64,000 bases of DNA from an uncultured Planctomycetaceae bacterium (lineage in GTDB: Bacteria > Planctomycetota > Planctomycetia > Pirellulales > UBA1268): NCBI GenBank assembly GCA_903885565.1, contig CAISJI010000040.1, positions 1-64,000 of the forward strand, given 5' to 3'. Shown here piece by piece: positions 53,980 through 64,000 of the stretch. A model generated the notes under the pieces. The model worked only from the letters and a program-made list of their open reading frames with translations, ran no database searches and was not told the origin of the DNA. The translations under genes were made by a program, and so were the position numbers. Position 1 is the stretch's first letter. Every line of letters starts with the position of its first letter.

Positions 53980-54690
53980 CTACGTCCCCCGTGTATTGCC
54001 ATACCAGGTGATGTGGTGCCGTGGGGCGAGTTGTACTTCCGCATGGCGGCAGGCCGCGGCGAGCCAGGAGGTGGTCGCGGCCAGCGTTGCTGCGGTCACG
54101 CCCTGCGGCATGATGAAAACACTCCCCTCCTGCATCTCTCCTGCTGCACGCAGGTCATCGGTCCAACGCAGGGCCTCGTTGAGATCGGCGGGAGTGTCGA
54201 CCACAAACTTCAACTGCCACGGACAAGCGCGCATAAGCGCGAGGATCACGTCATCGCGGCGGCGGGAGGTTTCGTGACGCTGCTGCCAGTTCTGCGGCGT
54301 GTCGGCCGGCGGCGTGGAGGAGGCGAGTTTGGGGCTGATCGACATCAGGTCGGCCAGCTCCTCAGGCGCCGTGTTCGGCGGCAGCACGGTGCCGGCGGTT
54401 TCGACCGTCACATGAAATCCCCGCTGGCGCAGCGCAGTGCACAGGTCTCCGGAGTCTGCCGGCAGCAGCGGCTCCCCCCCGGTGACCACAACATGGTCCA
54501 TGCCCAGAGCCTCGACGGCGGCGCAGATCTCCTCCACCGAGCGGTCTTCGCCTCCAGGCTGCCAGGACGTGAAGGGAGTGTCGCACCAGCGGCAGCGGAG
54601 GTTGCACCCGCTGGTGCGCACGAACGTGCTCGGCGTGCCGGCCAGCAGCCCCTCCCCCTGCAGCGAGGCGTAGAGTTCAGCGATGCGCAC
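53980..54690 (-). CDS. queE: 7-carboxy-7-deazaguanine synthase
   Basis: A 236-residue radical SAM enzyme that converts 6-carboxytetrahydropterin to 7-carboxy-7-deazaguanine in queuosine synthesis. The cluster motif is CNLRCRWCDT (CX3CX2C), and QGEG near the N-terminus, VTGGEPLL and SISPKL follow. The GTG at 54690 has AGGA 8 nt upstream and gives the usual family start; a longer ATG-initiated form (54762) would overlap queC by 86 bp. It follows queC and is probably coupled to it. Confidence 0.93.
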   Translation of the reverse strand: MRIAELYASLQGEGLLAGTPSTFVRTSGCNLRCRWCDTPFTSWQPGGEDRSVEEICAAVEALGMDHVVVTGGEPLLPADSGDLCTALRQRGFHVTVETAGTVLPPNTAPEELADLMSISPKLASSTPPADTPQNWQQRHETSRRRDDVILALMRACPWQLKFVVDTPADLNEALRWTDDLRAAGEMQEGSVFIMPQGVTAATLAATTSWLAAACRHAEVQLAPRHHITWYGNTRGT

Positions 54691-55438
54691 GCGGGGAGTC
54701 CTGGCAGCGGGGGTCGACCAGGCCCGCGGCGGCAAATCCGGCAGCGCGCAGGAGGCAGGCATCGCATGTGCCGCAGGGCTCTCCTTGGGGGCCGGGATCG
54801 TAGCAGCTGCTCGTCAGCCCGTAGTCGACCCCCAGGGAAAGTCCGAGCTGAATGATCTCTGCTTTTGAGAGCGCGATGAGAGGGGCGAGGATTTCGATCG
54901 GGTGGCCGGTGGTGCCCGCCTTGGTTGCCAGTTGGGCCAGATGGGAGAAGGCGGCAATGAATTCGGGTCGGCAGTCGGGATAACCGCTGTAGTCGATCGC
55001 ATTGACGCCCAGCGCCAAAGCGCTCGCGTTACGTGTTTCCGCCATCGCCAGAGCGAGGCTCAGCAGCACCGTGTTGCGTGCCGGCACATAGGTCGTGGGC
55101 ACGCCGTGCGAGATTTCTGCGGCAGAGCGTCCCTTGGGCAGCGGCACTGTGGCATCGACCAGAGCACTTCCCCCAAAGACAGCCAGATCGACAGAGAGCA
55201 CGACATGGTCGGTGATGCCGAGCCGAGCGGCCACGGTCCGGGCCGCCTCCACCTCGCCGCTGTGCCGCTGTCCGTACTGCACCGTGAGCGCCGAGACGGC
55301 ATATCCCTGGGCTTGGGCCCAGGCAGCCACGGTGGTGGAATCGAGGCCACCGGAGAGGAGCACGACGGCCGCACGCCTCCCGGAGGGGGAAATTTTGGCG
55401 GCGGACTGCGGTCCATCTTTCGTACGGTCGTGGTTCAT
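54677..55438 (-). CDS. queC: 7-cyano-7-deazaguanine synthase
   Basis: A 253-residue ATP-dependent enzyme that makes preQ0 from carboxydeazaguanine. The PP-loop motif is [10 protein letters not shown], with [23 protein letters not shown] and the zinc-binding C-terminal region [21 protein letters not shown]. The N-terminal 20 residues look non-conserved, so the true start could be internal. Its ATG (55438) is only 18 bp from the divergent queF ATG. It overlaps queE downstream. Confidence 0.95.
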
Positions 55439-55456
55439 GGCACAATCTTTCTCATC

Positions 55457-55843
55457 ATGAGCCTAACCTTGCAACATCCATCGCGCAGTCAGCTGGAAAC
55501 CTTCGCCAACCAGTTTCCCCACCGCGATTACCTGATCGAGATCATCTGTCCCGAGTTCACCTCGATGTGCCCGAAGACCGGCCAGCCCGACTTCGGCACG
55601 CTGACGATCCGCTACATCGCGGATGCGGTCTGCGTGGAGTTGAAGAGCCTGAAATTGTATCTGCAGGCCTTTCGCAACGAGGGTATTTTCTACGAAAATG
55701 TCACCAATCGCATCCTCGACGATCTGGTGGCGGTGATGCAGCCGCGCCGCATCACGCTGGTGGCGCACTTCACGCCGCGGGGAGGCATCTCCTCCCGGAT
55801 TGCCGTGTCGCATCCCACGGGGGAACCCCTCTCCGCGTTCTGA
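55457..55843 (+). CDS. queF: NADPH-dependent 7-cyano-7-deazaguanine reductase
   Basis: A 128-residue nitrile reductase that converts preQ0 to preQ1. The unimodular form has the catalytic Cys in [19 protein letters not shown] (second Cys) and [17 protein letters not shown], plus FTPRGGI. Together with queC and queE this covers three steps of the queuosine pathway; queD (6-carboxytetrahydropterin synthase) is not in the window. The start has no ribosome binding site of note, and the gene is divergent from queC. Confidence 0.95.
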
Positions 55844-55902: not shown

Positions 55903-56925
55903 ATGGCTCCTGCCTCCCGAATTCTCCTCTCGGCGCTGGCCGACGAATCGGCCTTCGGGCTGACGGCAGTCGAACAATTCACCGCGCTGTCGGCCATTGG
56001 CTTGGAGTATTACAGCCTGCGGAATGTCGATGTGGGCAAGGGCATCAAGAACGTGATGAAACTCACGTTGCCTGAGATCCAGCGGCTGCGGCATCTGGAG
56101 GATCAGTACGGACTCAACGTCGCCTCGATCGCATCGCCCATCGGCAAGATCAAGCTGGTGGATGTGGAAGACCGCACGAAGAACCGGTTCGTGCCATTCA
56201 AGAAATATCTCACCACCGAGGTGGCAACCGCCTGCAAGCTGGCCCACGCCTTCGAAACGAAGCTGATCCGCGGATTTTCCTTCTATCATCCGCGCGGCAC
56301 TGCCCCGGAGGAGTATTTGGAGCAGGCTGTCGATCGCATCGGCCAGATCGCCGAGGCCTGCCACCGCTCCGATCTCACCTTCGGGCTGGAGGTGGAGGCC
56401 AATCTCGTCGGGCAGACGGGTGAGCTCCTGGCCGAGATCTACCGCCGCGTAAACCACCCGGGGCTGGTGCTCGTGTTCGACGCAGCCAACCTTATCGTGC
56501 AGGGATTCTCCACGGCCGAGGTCTACCGGCAGTGGGAGGCGATGAAGCCCGGCTTGGGCTGGGTGCACATCAAGGACTATGCCAAGGTGTCGGCGACGGA
56601 GCGGGGCAGGCATGTCAATGAGGATGCCTTGGCCAATTTCGTGCCAGCCGACCAAGGCGCCGCCGGGCATCAGAAGATTCTGGCCGACCTCCGCACGATG
56701 CTCCCCTCGCTCTCGAAGCGGCTGGAACGCCGGGGCATTCCGGGTGTGTTTCTCGATCTGGAGCCGCATGTGCGGGGTGGGGGCCAATTTGGTGGAACCA
56801 GCGGCCCCGACGGGATGGGGATTGCCCTGCGGGGCCTCTGCCGGGTGCTCGATAAGGCCCAGATCAGCTACCACCTCCGCGATTTCGATGACCTGCTGGC
56901 AGCGCGGGGTCTGACGACCGGGTGA
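55903..56925 (+). CDS. Sugar phosphate isomerase/epimerase (xylose-isomerase-like TIM barrel)
   Basis: A 340-residue TIM-barrel protein of the AP-endonuclease-2 / xylose isomerase-like family. Strand-end acids and His include LEVEANLVGQ, LVFDAANLIVQ, VHIKDYAKVS and FLDLEPHV, compatible with a divalent metal site. Such enzymes isomerise or epimerise sugars, keto acids or amine analogues; the substrate is not clear. It lies first in a run of four co-oriented genes that continues with a radical SAM protein after 37 bp. Confidence 0.88.
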   Translation: MAPASRILLSALADESAFGLTAVEQFTALSAIGLEYYSLRNVDVGKGIKNVMKLTLPEIQRLRHLEDQYGLNVASIASPIGKIKLVDVEDRTKNRFVPFKKYLTTEVATACKLAHAFETKLIRGFSFYHPRGTAPEEYLEQAVDRIGQIAEACHRSDLTFGLEVEANLVGQTGELLAEIYRRVNHPGLVLVFDAANLIVQGFSTAEVYRQWEAMKPGLGWVHIKDYAKVSATERGRHVNEDALANFVPADQGAAGHQKILADLRTMLPSLSKRLERRGIPGVFLDLEPHVRGGGQFGGTSGPDGMGIALRGLCRVLDKAQISYHLRDFDDLLAARGLTTG

Positions 56926-56962: not shown

Positions 56963-58255
56963 ATGAGCGAGTCGACCGAGCCAGGCAGCTACTTTGTGGC
57001 GAACTATCCGCCGTTCGACCGCTGGACGGCGGCTGCGGTGCCTGCTGTGCTGGAGGCGTTTGCCGAGTCCCCCACTGCCGCGGCCCTCGGCCTCTATCTG
57101 CACGTTCCCTTCTGTCGCAAGCGGTGCAAGTTCTGCTATTTCCGTGTGTACACCGACACCTCCGCAGCGGATGTTGAGCGGTATTCCCAAGGGTTGGCCC
57201 GCGAAGCGGCGCTCGTGGCGGAGCAGCCTGCGGTAGCCGGTCGCACGTTGAAATATGTCTATTTCGGAGGGGGAACTCCTTCGTTTCTCTCCGTCAAGCA
57301 ACTGGAGAAGCTGGTCGCCGGGCTGCATGCGAGCTTTGGCTGGAACGATGCCCAAGAGGTGACATTCGAGTGCGAGCCAGGCACTCTGTCGGAGCCGAAA
57401 GTGAAGGCCCTGCGCAGCCTGGGGATGACGCGCATCTCGCTGGGAGTGGAAAATTTCGACGATTCAATTCTGGAGGCCAACGGCCGGGCCCATCTCTCCG
57501 GCGAGATCGGCCGGGCCTGGGATTGGATCAAGGCGGCCGATTTTCCCAACACGAACGTCGATCTGATCGCAGGCATGGTGGGCGAGACATTGGAGAGCTG
57601 GCAGCGCACGGTGGAGAAGACGCTGGCGCTGGAAGCCGACAGCGTCACGATCTATCAGATGGAGCTCCCCTTCAATACCACGTTCGTGCATGACGCCAAG
57701 GAGTCGGGGGCCGTTGCTCCCGTGGCCGATTGGGCGACCAAGCGTGCCTGGGTCGACTATGCCTTCAACCGCTTCACTGAGCAGGGCTATGTGGTGTCGA
57801 GTGCCTATACGCTGGTGCGCGATCCGCAGCGGGTCCATTTTCGCTACCGGGACATGCTCTGGGAGGGAAGTGATCTGCTGGCCCTCGGGGTGGCGAGCTT
57901 CGGCCACCTCTCCGGGCACCACTACCAAAACGCCACCCACTGGGATGAGTATCTGGCCGCCGTCGAGGCCGGCCGGCTGCCGGTGGTTCGCGGCCTGCGC
58001 CCCACCCCGCGGGAGTTGTTGATCCGCGAACTGGTGCTGGGGCTCAAGCGGGGATCGCTCGACGTGGAACGGCTGCGGAGCAAGTTTGGGATCGATCCGC
58101 TCAAGGAGTGGGCGGCCCAATGGCGGGCGCTTGAGCAGGAGGGATGGCTTTCGCAGGTCCACCCCGGCCCGGTGCTGTCGCGGGCCGGCCTGCTCCGGGT
58201 CGATGCCCTGTTGGCCCGGTTCTTTGAGGAACCGGGCACGCGTGTCGATGGATGA
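56963..58255 (+). CDS. HemN-like radical SAM protein (coproporphyrinogen III oxidase family)
   Basis: A 430-residue radical SAM enzyme. The SAM cluster motif is PFCRKRCKFCYF (CX3CX2C), followed by FGGGTPSFLS and FECEPGTLS, and a C-terminal HemN-like domain (ELVLGLKRGSLDVERL). Relatives act in haem synthesis, haem degradation (HutW) or cobalamin/porphyrin chemistry. The Phe after the last Cys (CYF) is typical of the HemN group. Neighbours are not haem genes, so it may be a specialised paralogue belonging to the local gene set. Confidence 0.87.
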   Translation: MSESTEPGSYFVANYPPFDRWTAAAVPAVLEAFAESPTAAALGLYLHVPFCRKRCKFCYFRVYTDTSAADVERYSQGLAREAALVAEQPAVAGRTLKYVYFGGGTPSFLSVKQLEKLVAGLHASFGWNDAQEVTFECEPGTLSEPKVKALRSLGMTRISLGVENFDDSILEANGRAHLSGEIGRAWDWIKAADFPNTNVDLIAGMVGETLESWQRTVEKTLALEADSVTIYQMELPFNTTFVHDAKESGAVAPVADWATKRAWVDYAFNRFTEQGYVVSSAYTLVRDPQRVHFRYRDMLWEGSDLLALGVASFGHLSGHHYQNATHWDEYLAAVEAGRLPVVRGLRPTPRELLIRELVLGLKRGSLDVERLRSKFGIDPLKEWAAQWRALEQEGWLSQVHPGPVLSRAGLLRVDALLARFFEEPGTRVDG

Positions 58256-58372: not shown

Positions 58373-60226
58373 GTGCGTGAAACCAGCCCATCCCCCATTT
58401 CCCCGGCCCTGATGCCGGCCGCGGGGGCGGGATCCGCCGAACGCTTGGCCTGCCCGGAGTCGAAGGTTCTGCGCGAACGGCTGCGGGGCATGGCGTCCGA
58501 TACCGTCGCCGGGTGGCGGGCTGGGGAATTACCCGCCGGAGTTCGCTCCGCAGCCGGATTACGCTCCCAGGCCGTGGCACTCGTGCAGCGGGCGGGCGCG
58601 CGCCCGGAGCATGTGGGCTGGGCGATGGTGACATTGGTATCTGAATACTGGCGCGGGCGGCTGGCATCGGGGGCCTCCGGCCGCCGGCTCCTCCTGCTGC
58701 CCGATTGTCCACATGCCTCGAGCGAGGCCGCTGGGCCAGCGGTGGCGGGGAGTCAGATGCCGCGGGCATGCGGCCCCGGCTGTGGCGTGGCGAGGCTCTG
58801 GGCGGCTGCCCGCGATGGCGGGTGGGTGGTTCAGCCAACGTCAGAGGCGATTGGCGCGATCGGCAGCCTGCTCACGGGGCAGTACGACGGTATTTTGGGA
58901 GTCGCCAAGCTGGAGCATTTGCAGAAAGCCTTTGCGATGCTGCCGGCATTCTCGCTGCCAATTGCGGCGGTGCCCTTCCAGCCGGTGGGAGCGGCCGGTT
59001 CCTGTGGCAGCTGTGGCGAGGCCGCGGCTGCCGCGGCGCTCGATGTGGAATGGGTGATGGGACTGCTCGGCAGCGCTGGAGAGGCAGCGGCGGGCGCAGC
59101 AGATGAACGTCCACTGCTGAGGGAGGCAGCCGAACTGTTTGCGCCCGAGTCGCTCCAGGCTCTGGCGGAGCGGCTCGGCAGGCCGGGGGTGTTTGGCCCG
59201 ACAGCGTTGCCTGACGGCGGCCAACGGCATCCTCCGTTGGCGGCAACGGCCGGTATGGCGGGGGAATTTCTGACCCGTGGCGGCAAGTTTCTGCGCCCGT
59301 TCATCGCGCTGGCGTCGTTTGATGCGATCGTCGCCGAAGGTCCTCCCGGAAGCGTCCCGGCCCGGCGGCGGGAGGCAGTCCGGGACGCCGCCGTGGCGAT
59401 CGAGATTTTTCACAAGGCATCGCTGGTGCATGACGACATCGAAGATGCCGACGCCATGCGCTATGGCAAGCCGACGTTGCATCGGCAGCATGGTGTTCCC
59501 TCGGCGATCAATACCGGCGACTACATGCTCGGTCTGGGCTATTCGATTGTGGCCTCCCTGCCGGGTGTCGATGCCGAAACCCAGCGCGACCTGCTCGCGA
59601 TGCTGGCCGATGCCCATTTGCGTCTGGCGCAGGGACAGGGAGCGGAGTTATGGTGGCGCGATGCCAGCGACAAACGGCTCTCTCCTGAGGAGGCGCTGGC
59701 CATCTACGGTCTCAAGACATCCCCGGCGTTTGAGGTGGCTGTGGCGATGGGCATCCGGCTGGCCGGTCTGCAGCCCACTGCGGTGGGGGCAGTCGACCGC
59801 TACGCCCTCCATGTGGGCATGGGGTTTCAGGTCCTCAACGATCTCAAAGACTGGTCGGGAGATTTGGAGAACAACCGGCGGGCGGCCGGGGATCTGCTGG
59901 GAGGGCGCCCCACGCTGATGTGGGCCTTGGCCATCGAGCGGCTGCCGGCTGCAGCAGCGGAGCAGTTGTTCGAACTGGCCGCGGCGGCCGGTCGTGCGGA
60001 TGCTCCCGAGTCGCTGATCGCGGAGGCGATTGGTCAAACGCGATCCCTTTACGAAGAGGCCGGGGTGTTTGCCCGGGCGGCATCGATCGTCGAGGCCGAG
60101 CGGGCGGCGGCCCGTGCTGCGGTGGCCACCTGCCGGCAGGTTCGCCTCAGAAAGGTGCTGGAGTTCCTGCTCGATCTGGCGGTTCCGGAAAATGCTGCGG
60201 CCGAATGGACTTCGCGCCGCGGTTGA
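58373..60226 (+). CDS. Fusion: DUF116-like domain plus polyprenyl diphosphate synthase
   Basis: A 617-residue protein of two parts. Residues about 20-240 match the Cys-rich DUF116 pattern (LLLPDCPH, CGPGCGVARLW, YDGILGVAKLEHL, GSCGSCG), a putative metal-binding domain of unknown function. Residues about 270-610 are a trans-prenyl synthase: GGKFLRPFIA, first Asp-rich motif HDDIEDAD, KTSPAFEVA and GFQVLNDLKDW. In the second Asp-rich site the usual first Asp is Asn (NDLKD), which could slow or change activity. Start is GTG with GAGG 9 nt upstream. I do not know a characterised protein with this fusion. Confidence 0.85.
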   Translation: MRETSPSPISPALMPAAGAGSAERLACPESKVLRERLRGMASDTVAGWRAGELPAGVRSAAGLRSQAVALVQRAGARPEHVGWAMVTLVSEYWRGRLASGASGRRLLLLPDCPHASSEAAGPAVAGSQMPRACGPGCGVARLWAAARDGGWVVQPTSEAIGAIGSLLTGQYDGILGVAKLEHLQKAFAMLPAFSLPIAAVPFQPVGAAGSCGSCGEAAAAAALDVEWVMGLLGSAGEAAAGAADERPLLREAAELFAPESLQALAERLGRPGVFGPTALPDGGQRHPPLAATAGMAGEFLTRGGKFLRPFIALASFDAIVAEGPPGSVPARRREAVRDAAVAIEIFHKASLVHDDIEDADAMRYGKPTLHRQHGVPSAINTGDYMLGLGYSIVASLPGVDAETQRDLLAMLADAHLRLAQGQGAELWWRDASDKRLSPEEALAIYGLKTSPAFEVAVAMGIRLAGLQPTAVGAVDRYALHVGMGFQVLNDLKDWSGDLENNRRAAGDLLGGRPTLMWALAIERLPAAAAEQLFELAAAAGRADAPESLIAEAIGQTRSLYEEAGVFARAASIVEAERAAARAAVATCRQVRLRKVLEFLLDLAVPENAAAEWTSRRG

Positions 60227-60291: not shown

Positions 60292-60918
60292 ATGGAATCG
60301 AATCATCCAGGCCAATCGAGCCGCGCCAAATTGCCCGGCAACCCGCCGCCAGCGGGATCGGTTGAGCGGGCGCTCCGTCTGGTGCGGCTGTTTTGTCCTG
60401 CAGTTGAGGACTTCGCGACCTTCACCGCCGCAGCCCCCGAAACAGTTCCCGCCCCTTACCGGGGACTGCTTGACCACACCAACCACATGACGGTTGTGAT
60501 GGAGCAGTTCCATGGCGAACCGCCGCACCTGCAGGTGGTGGCCCGCTGGCTGCCTGAAGCGGAGGGGCGTGGCGACTGGTATGCCCGTGAGATCCTGTTG
60601 CTTTCGGCGGCGGGAAAGGTGTGGCAGCAGGGCATCGTGCGGATCGATCTCGATCAGATCGAACCCGCCACCGCCGCCCTCATCCGCGCAGCGCACCTGC
60701 CGCTGGGACGCGTGCTCATCAACGCCGGTCTGCTCCGGGAGGTGCAGCACGTGGCGCTGGTGAAGGTGGTTCCGGGCCCCCATTTGGCAGCCCTGTTTGG
60801 CGGGGGAGAGTCGGGGGCAGTGCCCGCCGGGAATCGAGTGACGTACGGACGGGTGGCCGAGATCTCACTCGGAGGCGTGCCGGCGGTGGAGTTGCTGGAG
60901 ATCGTGGCTCCCCAGTGA
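60292..60918 (+). CDS. Chorismate pyruvate-lyase-like (UbiC/DUF98-type) protein
   Basis: A 208-residue protein resembling UbiC, which converts chorismate to 4-hydroxybenzoate. Compatible features are YRGLLDHTNHMT, ARE(I)LLLSAAGKVWQQGIVRID, HLPLGRVLINAG and the C-terminal RVAEISLGGVPAVELLEIVAP. The similarity is by pattern only. An ATG at 60205, overlapping the upstream gene by 22 bp, is an alternative start. It lies 66 bp after the DUF116-prenyl synthase gene, which suggests that an aromatic acid and a prenyl diphosphate may meet in one pathway. Confidence 0.65.
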   Translation: MESNHPGQSSRAKLPGNPPPAGSVERALRLVRLFCPAVEDFATFTAAAPETVPAPYRGLLDHTNHMTVVMEQFHGEPPHLQVVARWLPEAEGRGDWYAREILLLSAAGKVWQQGIVRIDLDQIEPATAALIRAAHLPLGRVLINAGLLREVQHVALVKVVPGPHLAALFGGGESGAVPAGNRVTYGRVAEISLGGVPAVELLEIVAPQ

Positions 60919-61516
60919 AGCGTTGCCCCTGCCGGCCGGCGGATGGAAAGACTGGCGGGGCGGCTCCGCTCCTCTGTGCCATCGCCTTCTGGAGGCCATC
61001 GCCGTGCGGGGCTGTTCGTGGTCCGTTGGCAACTGCCGCAGGGGGCAAGTGCTCTCCTCCGGGGCCCCAGAAAAATTCCGTGGGCTCCTGTAATGATTGC
61101 CCAAAGTGTTGCGCAAAAGGGGTTTGCGTTAAATGCATCGATATTGACTCACTGCGTAATCTGGCTGTACAGTTGGGCGTCAGGCAAGGATGGCAAGCAG
61201 GGTAGCGATCGTAGGGAACGGAGTTCCGGCGGTCAGAGGCCCTTGGGCTTGCCCACAGTCCGGATGTTCTGGGCTGTTTAGGGAGCCTGGATGGTTTTTT
61301 GGCGTGCCTTCCTTTTGCGGCAGTGAGACCGAGCCTTTGAGTTGGGTTGGGTTTCGGGGCTGTGGGTGGGAGTGGGCGTCTGGTTGGATTGCGGCGGTTT
61401 GGGAGTACGGCAACAAGGAGGCCTAGGTGTTCGGGGCTGTCTTTGCGGATGAGGCAAAGCCCTGGATCCCGTTTTTGACTAGCTGCACCACGGCTAGGGA
61501 GAGGGTGGTAAAGCAC
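60919..61516. other. Long leader or promoter gap before the response regulator gene
   Basis: This 598-bp gap has no credible gene. It shifts from GC-rich to more mixed composition at about 61080, contains a hairpin CGCAAA-AGGGG-TTTGCG (61112-61128) and a good promoter candidate, and then G/T-rich DNA with long unpaired runs. The response regulator mRNA would have a leader of more than 300 nt if that promoter is used. Confidence 0.45.
61144..61173 (+). promoter_or_regulatory. Candidate housekeeping promoter upstream of the response regulator gene
   Basis: TTGACT and TACAGT with an 18-bp spacer are close to sigma-70-type consensus. The next plausible gene is the HTH-response regulator at 61517, giving a leader of about 340 nt. 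The AT content here is higher than in the surrounding DNA. Confidence 0.5.
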
Positions 61517-62101
61517 ATGCAGAAAACTGTTTACACGACCGGAGAAGCAGCCAAGATTTGCAAAGTGAGTCAGCAGACGATCATTCGCTGCTTCGATTCC
61601 GGTCAGCTGAAGGGGTTTCGCGTGCCGGGCAGCCGGTTTCGTCGAATTCCCCGTGATCAGCTCTTCCTGTTCATGAGGGACAACGGCATCCCCACGGATG
61701 CTTTGGAAAGTGGTCGTCGGAAGATTCTGGTAGTCGACGACGACAACGATTTGGTCGAACTCATCACCGATGTCCTGGAGCGGGATGGTCGGTTTGAGAC
61801 TCGCAGCGTCAATAATGGATTTGATGCTGGCATGATGGTGAAGGATTATCGTCCTGATCTGATCGTGCTCGACGTCATGCTCCCCGATATCAACGGCAAG
61901 GAAGTCTGCCAGCGGGTGCGCAGCGATTCGACCATGGACGAGGTGCGTATCATCTGCATCTCCGGCATGTGCGAGCCGGACAAGATCGAGGAGCTCAAAG
62001 CCTCCGGGGCGAATGAGTTCCTGCAGAAGCCGTTTGAGGCCGAGATGCTGGTCGATCGGATCTGTGCGCTGCTGGACATCGAGTCTGTGGCGGCTGGTTG
62101 A
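61517..62101 (+). CDS. Response regulator with N-terminal excisionase-type HTH
   Basis: A 194-residue regulator with domains in the reverse of the usual order. An N-terminal MerR/excisionase-like HTH (1-60; YTTGEAAKICKVSQQTIIRC, GSRFRRIPRDQLFLFM) is followed by a REC domain (about 68-190) with acidic pair D74/D75, phospho-acceptor D119 (LIVLDVMLPDI) and Lys in EFLQKPF. The ATG at 61517 is the first start that gives the HTH intact. It overlaps the histidine kinase gene by 4 bp (TTGA), so the pair is a likely two-component system. This architecture is frequent in planctomycetes. Confidence 0.9.
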   Translation: MQKTVYTTGEAAKICKVSQQTIIRCFDSGQLKGFRVPGSRFRRIPRDQLFLFMRDNGIPTDALESGRRKILVVDDDNDLVELITDVLERDGRFETRSVNNGFDAGMMVKDYRPDLIVLDVMLPDINGKEVCQRVRSDSTMDEVRIICISGMCEPDKIEELKASGANEFLQKPFEAEMLVDRICALLDIESVAAG

Positions 62102-63408
62102 GCTCTGGTCTCGGTCGCTTGTCTCACCCGGTCGGAGGTTTTTTGGGACACTGCCAATCCTCCGGCGTGCGGCTCTTGGTGATCCCCGCGCCCTCCATAA
62201 CGCTCGCGTTGCCGGTTCCGCGCCAGGCCTGCTTAGGCCTGGCGCGGGCCGTGCTCGCCGAGGTGAGGGACGGAAGTGGGCCTGCTGGCCAGTCGGGCGA
62301 ACCGATCGCAGCGGCTTGGGCGGCACTGGCGGCTGAGTCGCCGGTGGTCGCTGTCTGGCTGGTCAGTGTCGATCCCGATGGGGCGGCAGAGGGCTCTGCC
62401 CCTGTGCGCCGTGGGGCGTTCTTTCGCAGGCTCGGCGGTGCGCTTGTCGTCGGTCAGGCTCCGCCGGAAGCGATATGCGTGGGCGAGGCTGCCTGGGAAG
62501 TGTTCGCGACTCAGTCGGCTGGGATGGGTGGTCGCAGCGTGGAGCAGACCTGCGCATCCGAGTGGCGTCAGCAGGGCTTGGAAATATGGCGCCGGATGGA
62601 GGGTGGTCAATTGCCTGTCGTGGGGCCTCCTGATCTGCCCGCCGTTTCGGTGGAAGGGAAACTGCTGGCCGACCTTCTGGCGATGGCGGCCACGCACGCC
62701 AGTCTCACGGAGAGGTTTGGCGAGTCACTCGCCGAGGCTCGCCTGGAGGCGACGAGGGAACTGGCGTATGGCGCCGGGCACGAGATCAACAATCCGCTGG
62801 CCAATATCGCCACCCGGGCCCAGTCGCTGCTGCTGGAGGAACGCGATCCTGAACGCCGCAAGCGTCTGGCCACGATTGTCGACCAGTCGTTCCGCGCGCG
62901 GGATCTGATCGGCGGCATGATGCTGTTCGCACGGCCGCCCAAGCCGCATCCGGCCGTCATCGATGTCAGCTTGATGGTGGCTGCGGTGATCGATTCACTC
63001 GCCGTTGGGGCGGCAAATCGCTCCATTCGTCTGGAATACTCTCCGCCCCCGGTTCCGCTGCCGGTCGTGGTCGATCGGGCGCAGATTGAAGAGGCGATTC
63101 GGATGGTGGTGGTCAATGCTGTTGAAGCAGTTGCGGATGGTGGCCGGGTCACGCTTCAGGCCTGCGGCCGGCAGGAGCAAGGGCGGGAGTGGTGTGCGAT
63201 CACCATTGATGACGACGGCCGGGGAATGGACCGGCAGACGGCGCAGCGGGCCTTTGATCCCTTTTTCAGTGGCCGGGAAGCCGGCCGGGGCGTGGGACTG
63301 GGGCTCTCCAAGGCCTGGGGATACGTGACCGCCGCAGGTGGCATCATCCGGATCGATTCCCGCCCCACGCAGGGAACCTGCGTGACGATTCTGGTTCCCG
63401 TTGGCTGA
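62098..63408 (+). CDS. Sensor histidine kinase, soluble
   Basis: A 436-residue kinase starting with TTG at 62098, coupled to the regulator. No membrane helix is seen; residues 1-200 may be a degenerate sensor domain. The dimerisation/phosphoacceptor region has H228 in GAGHEINNPLANI, and the ATPase domain has N-box MVVVNAVEAV, G1 IDDDGRGMD and G2 GVGLGLSKAWGYV. All catalytic boxes look intact. Its partner is probably the upstream regulator; the signal is unknown. Confidence 0.9.
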   Translation: MSSGLGRLSHPVGGFLGHCQSSGVRLLVIPAPSITLALPVPRQACLGLARAVLAEVRDGSGPAGQSGEPIAAAWAALAAESPVVAVWLVSVDPDGAAEGSAPVRRGAFFRRLGGALVVGQAPPEAICVGEAAWEVFATQSAGMGGRSVEQTCASEWRQQGLEIWRRMEGGQLPVVGPPDLPAVSVEGKLLADLLAMAATHASLTERFGESLAEARLEATRELAYGAGHEINNPLANIATRAQSLLLEERDPERRKRLATIVDQSFRARDLIGGMMLFARPPKPHPAVIDVSLMVAAVIDSLAVGAANRSIRLEYSPPPVPLPVVVDRAQIEEAIRMVVVNAVEAVADGGRVTLQACGRQEQGREWCAITIDDDGRGMDRQTAQRAFDPFFSGREAGRGVGLGLSKAWGYVTAAGGIIRIDSRPTQGTCVTILVPVG

Positions 63409-63740
63409 CCTGAGTTGTCCGTGGAAAAAGGCATCCTTGACCCTTTGGATGAAAGAGAGCCTGCTTGGTCTGCCTGCAGCAGGCTGCGCGTTAGAGTCAA
63501 CCCAAAGCCCCCGGCGTGATGAGGCCAGGGGCTAGTACGGCTGCGGCAACCAGTTTTTTACGCTTCCAAGGCGGGTGCCGGCCGTTGCCGACCTTGTCGG
63601 TACCACTGCGTTTCTCTATCCTCGCTTGGCTTCCGGTTCGCGCTCGAAGGCCCTGCCGGAAGACCCCGAGTTCAGGATGGACTTGCGGGAGCGAGACGCG
63701 GGAGTGGGTCCCGCCGGCTTGGAGCTTGGATCCGCTGTAT
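63409..63740. other. Gap before the final partial gene
   Basis: This 332-bp gap contains a short imperfect hairpin after the kinase (AGCCTGCT/AGCAGGCT, 63459-63486) and another around 63505 (AGCCCC/GGGGCT). It may hold a terminator for the kinase and the promoter of the next gene, but no strong -35/-10 pair stands out. Confidence 0.4.
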
Positions 63741-64000
63741 GACCTCCAGAGCGACCGGTATCACAGTTCACTCGACCGATGCTGGAGCGCAGGACGCCTC
63801 ATCTTCCTGCCTCGGATTGCCGGTCTCCCCCACTCCCCTGCACCACCCTGCAGCGGTTCACGAAGCCGGCCTGAGGGGCAGCGATCGTGTGGCTGATCGC
63901 CTCGGCACGGCAGGCCGGCAGGCGGCCGTCCTCGATACGGTGGGGCTCACCGCAGACTGGCTGCGACGGAACCAATACGCCGACGGCCACTGGCGCGGTC
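63741..64000 (+). CDS. Squalene cyclase/prenyltransferase-repeat protein, 5' part only
   Basis: An open frame starts at ATG 63741 and runs out of the window without a stop (86 codons seen). The first 65 residues are poorly conserved; then comes TVGLTADWLRRNQYADGHWRG, whose QYADGHW is a typical QW motif of terpene-cyclase-like (squalene-hopene cyclase, squalene oxidase repeat) proteins near their N-terminus. GGAG lies 15 nt upstream, so the start is uncertain. Full-length proteins are usually over 600 residues. It may be an isoprenoid enzyme linked to the prenyl synthase region, or a general alpha/alpha-barrel protein. Confidence 0.6.

Follow-up and report, generated by a model that had tools for sequence, protein, structure and literature searches.

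A planctomycete DUF116–prenyl synthase fusion with a degenerate DUF116 half and a predicted long-chain prenyl diphosphate synthase half

The fusion gene and its neighbours

We analysed a 64,000-nucleotide stretch of DNA (hereafter the window) from an uncultured Planctomycetaceae bacterium, in which a single gene joins a DUF116-like domain to a trans-polyprenyl diphosphate synthase (Table 1). The frame of this gene was uninterrupted, without a frameshift, and AlphaFold2 modelled its product as one two-domain chain (pLDDT 85.6, pTM 0.86). The C-terminal half matched PF00348 at approximately 149–151 bits (148.9 in the Pfam test), above the gathering cut-off of 27, and a Foldseek search with the modelled half retrieved solved prenyl synthases from the PDB (E 6e-13, TM-score (target) up to 0.86), showing the all-helical prenyl synthase fold. 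The N-terminal half, however, scored 16.9 bits (hmmscan) or 20.3 bits (genome search) against PF01976, below the cut-off of 25, whereas phylum relatives with an intact fusion reached DUF116 scores of 110–142 bits. The initial annotation had described one chain made of a Cys-rich DUF116-like domain and a prenyl synthase; the single chain and the synthase half stood, but the N-terminal half fell short of the family cut-off and is not Cys-rich in the DUF116-family sense.

Intact fusions contain seven invariant cysteine residues, arranged as LLPHC..C..C-x2-CGxC..GVAC..C in an alignment of 20 sequences, which would hold an Fe–S or other metal site. An alignment of 70 fusions revealed that the window protein lacks the family cysteine residues at positions 119, 130 and 179. 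The same three were lost at all 13 loci of the window's family, where Cys112, Cys133 and Cys137 were retained with one extra residue inserted between the last two. A second alignment placed a displaced cysteine (~213–216) at the position of the seventh. Apart from the N-terminus, the AlphaFold2 model was least confident in loops 122–125 and within 207–221 (207–210 and 216–221), which are the same loops that carried the lost cysteine residues. The window genome also encodes an intact fusion paralogue on another contig (contig C133), with a DUF116 score of 123.7 bits. As judged from the alignments, DUF116 was shown to be the degenerate, decaying half of the window protein and its family, with the synthase half under constraint. 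A PDB sequence search found no solved DUF116 relatives, and the fold search gave nothing beyond weak Rossmann-like similarities, none of them at E≤0.001. A search of the open-access literature found no paper on the fusion or on DUF116 in such a context.

In the window's family the gene order is TIM barrel, HutW-like radical SAM protein, fusion, UbiC-like protein, response regulator, histidine kinase, true squalene-hopene cyclase (SHC) and HpnH, the last lying outside the window (the SHC–HpnH stretch runs from window position 63739 to G000:C40:67076). The true SHC and HpnH genes were found 3–7 kb downstream of the fusion, on the same strand, at nearly all loci of the family. The response regulator/kinase pair ahead of them is likewise constant in the family, and two-component control of hopanoid synthesis is possible. 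A firm UbiC identity was not adopted for the product encoded after the fusion, which had no Pfam match and a homologue of which scored 17.2 bits, below the cut-off. Just upstream of the locus, window positions 53980–55843 hold queuosine/preQ0-type genes for QueC (−), a QueE-like radical SAM protein (−) and QueF (+, real start near 55480).

Table 1. Positions of the fusion gene, its domains and motifs, and the adjoining genes in the window
Feature	Position	Strand	Remarks
Xylose-isomerase-like TIM barrel	55903..56925	+	Conserved upstream of the fusion in the window's family
HutW/HemN-like radical SAM protein	56963..58255	+	CxxxCxxC intact; also in the intact module of other orders
DUF116-like/trans-polyprenyl diphosphate synthase fusion	58373..60226	+	Single ORF, 617 aa, GTG start; AlphaFold2 model
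Degenerate DUF116-like half, residues 69-200	58577..58972	+	Below PF01976 cut-off; alignment of 70 fusions
Retained Cys: C112, C133, C137	58706-58708, 58769-58771, 58781-58783	+	Alignment of 70 fusions
Candidate displaced seventh Cys (C213 and C216)	59009..59020	+	Loop holds Cys in 13/13 family members; alignment read by eye
Polyprenyl synthetase domain, residues 297-537	59261..59983	+	PF00348 match and fold match
K348-A349-S350, ahead of first Asp motif	59414..59422	+	K in 121/121; small residues at -5/-4
First Asp-rich motif DDIEDAD	59432..59452	+	DDIED is residues 354-358 (59432-59446); constant or almost constant across 70 fusions
R363-Y364 (RY)	59459..59464	+	RY in 120/121 fusions; RR in other synthases seen here
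Second Asp-rich motif NDLKD, residues 489-493	59837..59851	+	N in 89/121 fusions
Weakly chorismate-lyase-like (UbiC/Rv2949c-like) protein	60292..60918	+	Directly downstream of most A-type fusions
HTH + response regulator	61427..62101	+	Conserved in family loci
Histidine kinase	62098..63408	+	Conserved in family loci
True squalene-hopene cyclase, 5' part	63739..64000, on to contig base 65952	+	TIGR01507, 610 bits

The second Asp-rich motif and the active site of the synthase half

As the initial annotation had stated, the first Asp-rich motif is intact and the second reads NDLKD. The latter departs from the second DDxxD of PF00348, but score and fold keep the protein in the family as a variant. 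In ordinary prenyl synthases the first Asp of the second motif (SARM) is the main Mg-B ligand (PMC6214179), and its replacement by Asn had been put forward as a possible lesion, the sign of a pseudoenzyme. However, the position is N in 89 of the 121 fusions, being the rule in one large clade, and D in 31, mostly of the B/verrucomicrobial branch, which argues that NDLKD is the norm of a clade and not a lesion. Residues G304, R308, E344, H347, K348, S350, D354/D355/D358/D360, R363, K448/T449, Q486 and D490 were invariant across the 70-fusion alignment, and the signature GGK..R, HK-A-S-L-x-HDD, KT and GQG.E was kept in all or nearly all fusion copies. Mycobacterium tuberculosis Rv0989c is active despite an Arg at the same position (PMC6214179). 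The fusion is, moreover, the sole long-chain candidate in several genomes, and those with only an FPPS-type enzyme and the fusion would be left without a long-chain synthase if it were inactive. Thus, although the Asn is a real departure from the main Mg-B ligand, we consider it very improbable that it turns the synthase into a pseudoenzyme or a regulatory subunit.

Besides the Asn, the fusion family is distinguished by RY in place of RR (120/121) and by a Lys at −6 (121/121). Chain length is usually set by the residue five positions upstream of the first Asp motif (PMC6214179), and residues −5/−4 are A-S in the fusion, A-T in IspB-type and Y-S in FPPS-type enzymes; the small residue at −5 (Ala349) is thus as in IspB-type long-chain synthases. 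Counting against an active long-chain enzyme are the replacement of the canonical RR by RY and of the first SARM Asp by Asn. Compared with long-chain trans-polyprenyl diphosphate synthases of the IspB/HexPPS type (PF00348), the window protein has the fold, the first Asp motif, GGK..R, KT and the small residues before the first Asp motif in common, but differs in its N-terminal DUF116 fusion, its NDxxD SARM, RY rather than RR and the invariant Lys at −6. It was not close kin of the planctomycete IspB-type enzymes, scoring 43.8 bits against approximately 270–375 bits for most of the true members listed.

One alternative role is that the fusion feeds the downstream hopanoid genes, providing prenyl diphosphate for squalene and hopanoids, with the degenerate DUF116 half being irrelevant. 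The position of the true SHC (610 bits) and HpnH genes in nearly all family loci is in keeping with this. However, every genome examined already has an FPPS-type enzyme, residue −5 is Ala as opposed to the Tyr of FPPS-type enzymes, the two-component gene pair intervenes between the fusion and SHC, and degenerate copies of other families (G314 and G087) have no adjoining SHC. A hopanoid role is therefore improbable.

A terpenoid module beside intact fusions and the decay of DUF116

The fusion-type synthase was detected in 144 of the 199 genomes of the class, all 30 nearest relatives matched, and a scan of named genomes found the fusion in Planctomycetota, Verrucomicrobiota, Sumerlaeota and Zipacnadia. 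A sequencing error at the junction, one of two objections raised in the initial annotation, and a chance fusion are ruled out by this distribution, which argues that the fusion is real and old. The other objection, that homologues might split the two domains, was partly borne out: G465 and G332 have lost DUF116, and the domain stands alone in def-fmt-rsmB operons, but the splitting is patterned and the linkage stands. The stand-alone genes (147–165 aa; L128–L138) lie in def-fmt-DUF116-rsmB operons within a single planctomycete family (f45). This second context of DUF116 is linked to translation and was uninformative about its function. Stand-alone DUF116 (PF01976), which is also found in archaea, is homologous to the N-terminal half of the window protein. 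The window copy differs in scoring below the cut-off, in its lost cysteine residues and in being fused to a synthase, and the stand-alone copies lie in another genomic context.

Intact fusions were accompanied by a core gene set comprising an SHC-like cyclase, a ferredoxin-like protein, a GcvH-like protein and one or two radical-SAM enzymes. A-type loci add a UbiC-like protein and a GGR-like flavoprotein, and B-type loci add CobW, a small Cys protein, a toroid protein and NifS; no single locus need contain every member. The cyclase is a class II, SHC-like enzyme with a PDxDDT motif (~25% identity to true SHC and ~43–55% to the A-type reference), and the GcvH-like protein retains the lipoyl-Lys motif. 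Among loci flanked by 5 kb or more on each side, an SHC-like cyclase lay within 8 kb of the fusion at 57 of 64 intact and 0 of 12 degenerate loci (Fisher p 1.6e-9, kinship ignored; the genomes are related, so that such p-values overstate independence). The proposal that the fusion ties DUF116 to isoprenoid metabolism was supported by this proximity, and much more strongly than by a single protein. The ancestral fusion was shown to have had a seven-Cys DUF116 and to have been part of a conserved module with the SHC-like cyclase, the ferredoxin-like protein, the lipoyl GcvH-like carrier and radical-SAM enzymes. On gene content, we regard this set as an undescribed terpenoid module, widespread in Planctomycetota and Verrucomicrobiota.

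The module was seen at loci L146–L225 (e.g. L152, L163, L174 and L216), with an iron alcohol dehydrogenase and a PQQ-repeat protein also among its members. In cultured planctomycetes, Stieleria or Rhodopirellula (L171 and L176), the fusion occurs together with the cyclase. A ~125-aa protein with no significant Pfam match was found at L077:7546-7959, L079:6369-6776 and L216:8713-9084; its motif, LYCxCAxA..DLCE..ARRDP..AACxPRAVxWLF, resembles by eye the N-terminal Fe–S part of heterodisulfide reductase HdrA.

In the sesquarterpene route of Bacillus (HepS/T, YtpB and SqhC), a long-chain synthase acts together with an SHC-like cyclase. The intact module is analogous in this pairing but has additional ferredoxin-like, GcvH-like and radical-SAM partners, and the window locus is without the SHC-like enzyme. 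The Bacillus enzymes are named in PMC7839719. With sHdr-LbpA lipoate-dependent sulfur oxidation (PMC6067878), the intact module alone has a lipoyl GcvH-like carrier and Fe–S proteins in common, but it is linked to terpenoid genes, and no Hdr complex was seen in the loci examined.

At the locus in the window's family, the module's cyclase, ferredoxin-like and GcvH-like genes are gone. Further degenerate or deleted copies also had no cyclase nearby (0/6; L250 is the same contig as the already counted L194). In four genomes whose sole fusion is degenerate (G314, G087, G304 and G296), genome-wide searches found neither an SHC-like cyclase beyond true-SHC-level matches nor the module's ferredoxin-like protein. 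The decay formed a series, from the loss of three to four cysteine residues, to the loss of all of them (G105b and G367), to deletion of DUF116 (G465 and G332), and in every case the synthase remained. Parsimony on a FastTree phylogeny of the synthase half, several branches of which were weakly supported, gave five DUF116 changes, suggesting that DUF116 decayed or was deleted about five independent times, with a cyclase near none of those loci. From this pattern we infer that the Cys site works for the cyclase module and that chain elongation can do without it; the site would become dispensable once the cyclase is gone. The five natural losses thus point to a dependence of DUF116 on the terpene-cyclase module and not on the prenyl synthase.

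Because four cysteine residues are kept across the window's family, a remodelled metal site (Cys112, Cys133, Cys137 and Cys213/216) is possible. Such a site might still be in use, for instance together with two proteins whose genes are left in the operon, the UbiC-like protein and the HutW-like radical SAM enzyme. The first three residues and a cysteine in the following loop are indeed kept in 13/13 family members, and both genes are retained. However, the DUF116 score is under the family cut-off, the loops that held the lost cysteine residues (122–125 and 207–221) were modelled with low confidence, and the parallel lineages that lost all cysteine residues or the entire domain kept the synthase. 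Continued use of such a site is therefore unlikely.

For the intact fusion, the seven-Cys Fe–S (or other metal) site would work with the redox partners of the module. We tentatively propose, with somewhat less than even confidence, that Planctomycetota and Verrucomicrobiota have an undescribed terpenoid pathway with DUF116 as its redox half, in which a seven-Cys Fe–S site joined to a long-chain synthase, electrons from a dedicated ferredoxin-like protein, a lipoyl GcvH-like carrier, radical SAM chemistry and the SHC-like cyclase would yield a modified cyclic terpenoid. The window gene would then be a remnant left after loss of the pathway, its synthase recruited for quinone.

Absence of IspB-type synthases and the quinone side chain

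An IspB-type long-chain synthase was found in 175 of the 199 class genomes, and 23 of the 24 genomes without one carry the fusion. By hand count, which omits three ambiguous genomes (G465, G332 and G491) from the degenerate and intact groups, it was missing from 10/10 degenerate-fusion genomes, 12/131 intact-fusion-only genomes and 1/55 fusion-less genomes; these absences rest partly on draft genomes, which can hide genes. The two DUF116-deleted genomes differ, G465 being without IspB and G332 with it. No IspB-type synthase was found in any of the 11 tested genomes of the window's family (0/11), and the sole prenyl synthases of G296, G314 and G087 are an FPPS-type enzyme and the degenerate fusion. 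UbiA-family enzymes were present in all genomes tested. MK-6 has been reported in Gemmata (PMC10817699), implying the need for a C30 chain.

Taken together, the absence of IspB, the genomes with FPPS and the fusion only, the A-S residues, MK-6 and UbiA are best read as an active long-chain synthase replacing IspB. We lean towards the view, held at a little better than even confidence, that the window gene encodes a predicted active, Mg-dependent long-chain trans-prenyl diphosphate synthase whose DUF116 domain is either a relic or a remodelled remainder, and that the enzyme today probably makes the side chain of menaquinone. The synthase half would extend an allylic diphosphate with IPP to a predicted length of ~C30 and would stand in for the absent IspB-type enzyme; the chain would most likely go into menaquinone, which is MK-6 in planctomycetes with a reported quinone. 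Such a fusion would explain how IspB-less genomes could still make respiratory quinone.

The window genome has other long-chain candidates besides the window copy, namely the intact paralogue (contig C133) and a divergent synthase (contig C216). Either of these could supply the quinone chain, leaving the window copy to provide the prenyl part of a small meroterpenoid or lipid built with its UbiC-like and HutW-like neighbours. These two genes stay linked to the fusion through the loss of the cyclase, and the window genome has four synthases, as such a division of labour would allow; but G296 has kept its degenerate fusion with no such extra synthase, and the locus showed no UbiA gene. This makes a meroterpenoid role quite unlikely, and we retain the menaquinone side chain as the favoured product.

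An intact DUF116 fusion without an IspB-type synthase was observed in G313, G319, G350, G373, G408, G329, G379, G399, G417, G434, G451 and G469. In such genomes, which may be at an intermediate stage, the fusion could serve both pathways. The divergent polyprenyl synthase, present in part of the window's family (L004, G000:C216:6410-7117; L245), contains VIDDFEDDSLTRRG and MKNDLDEL.
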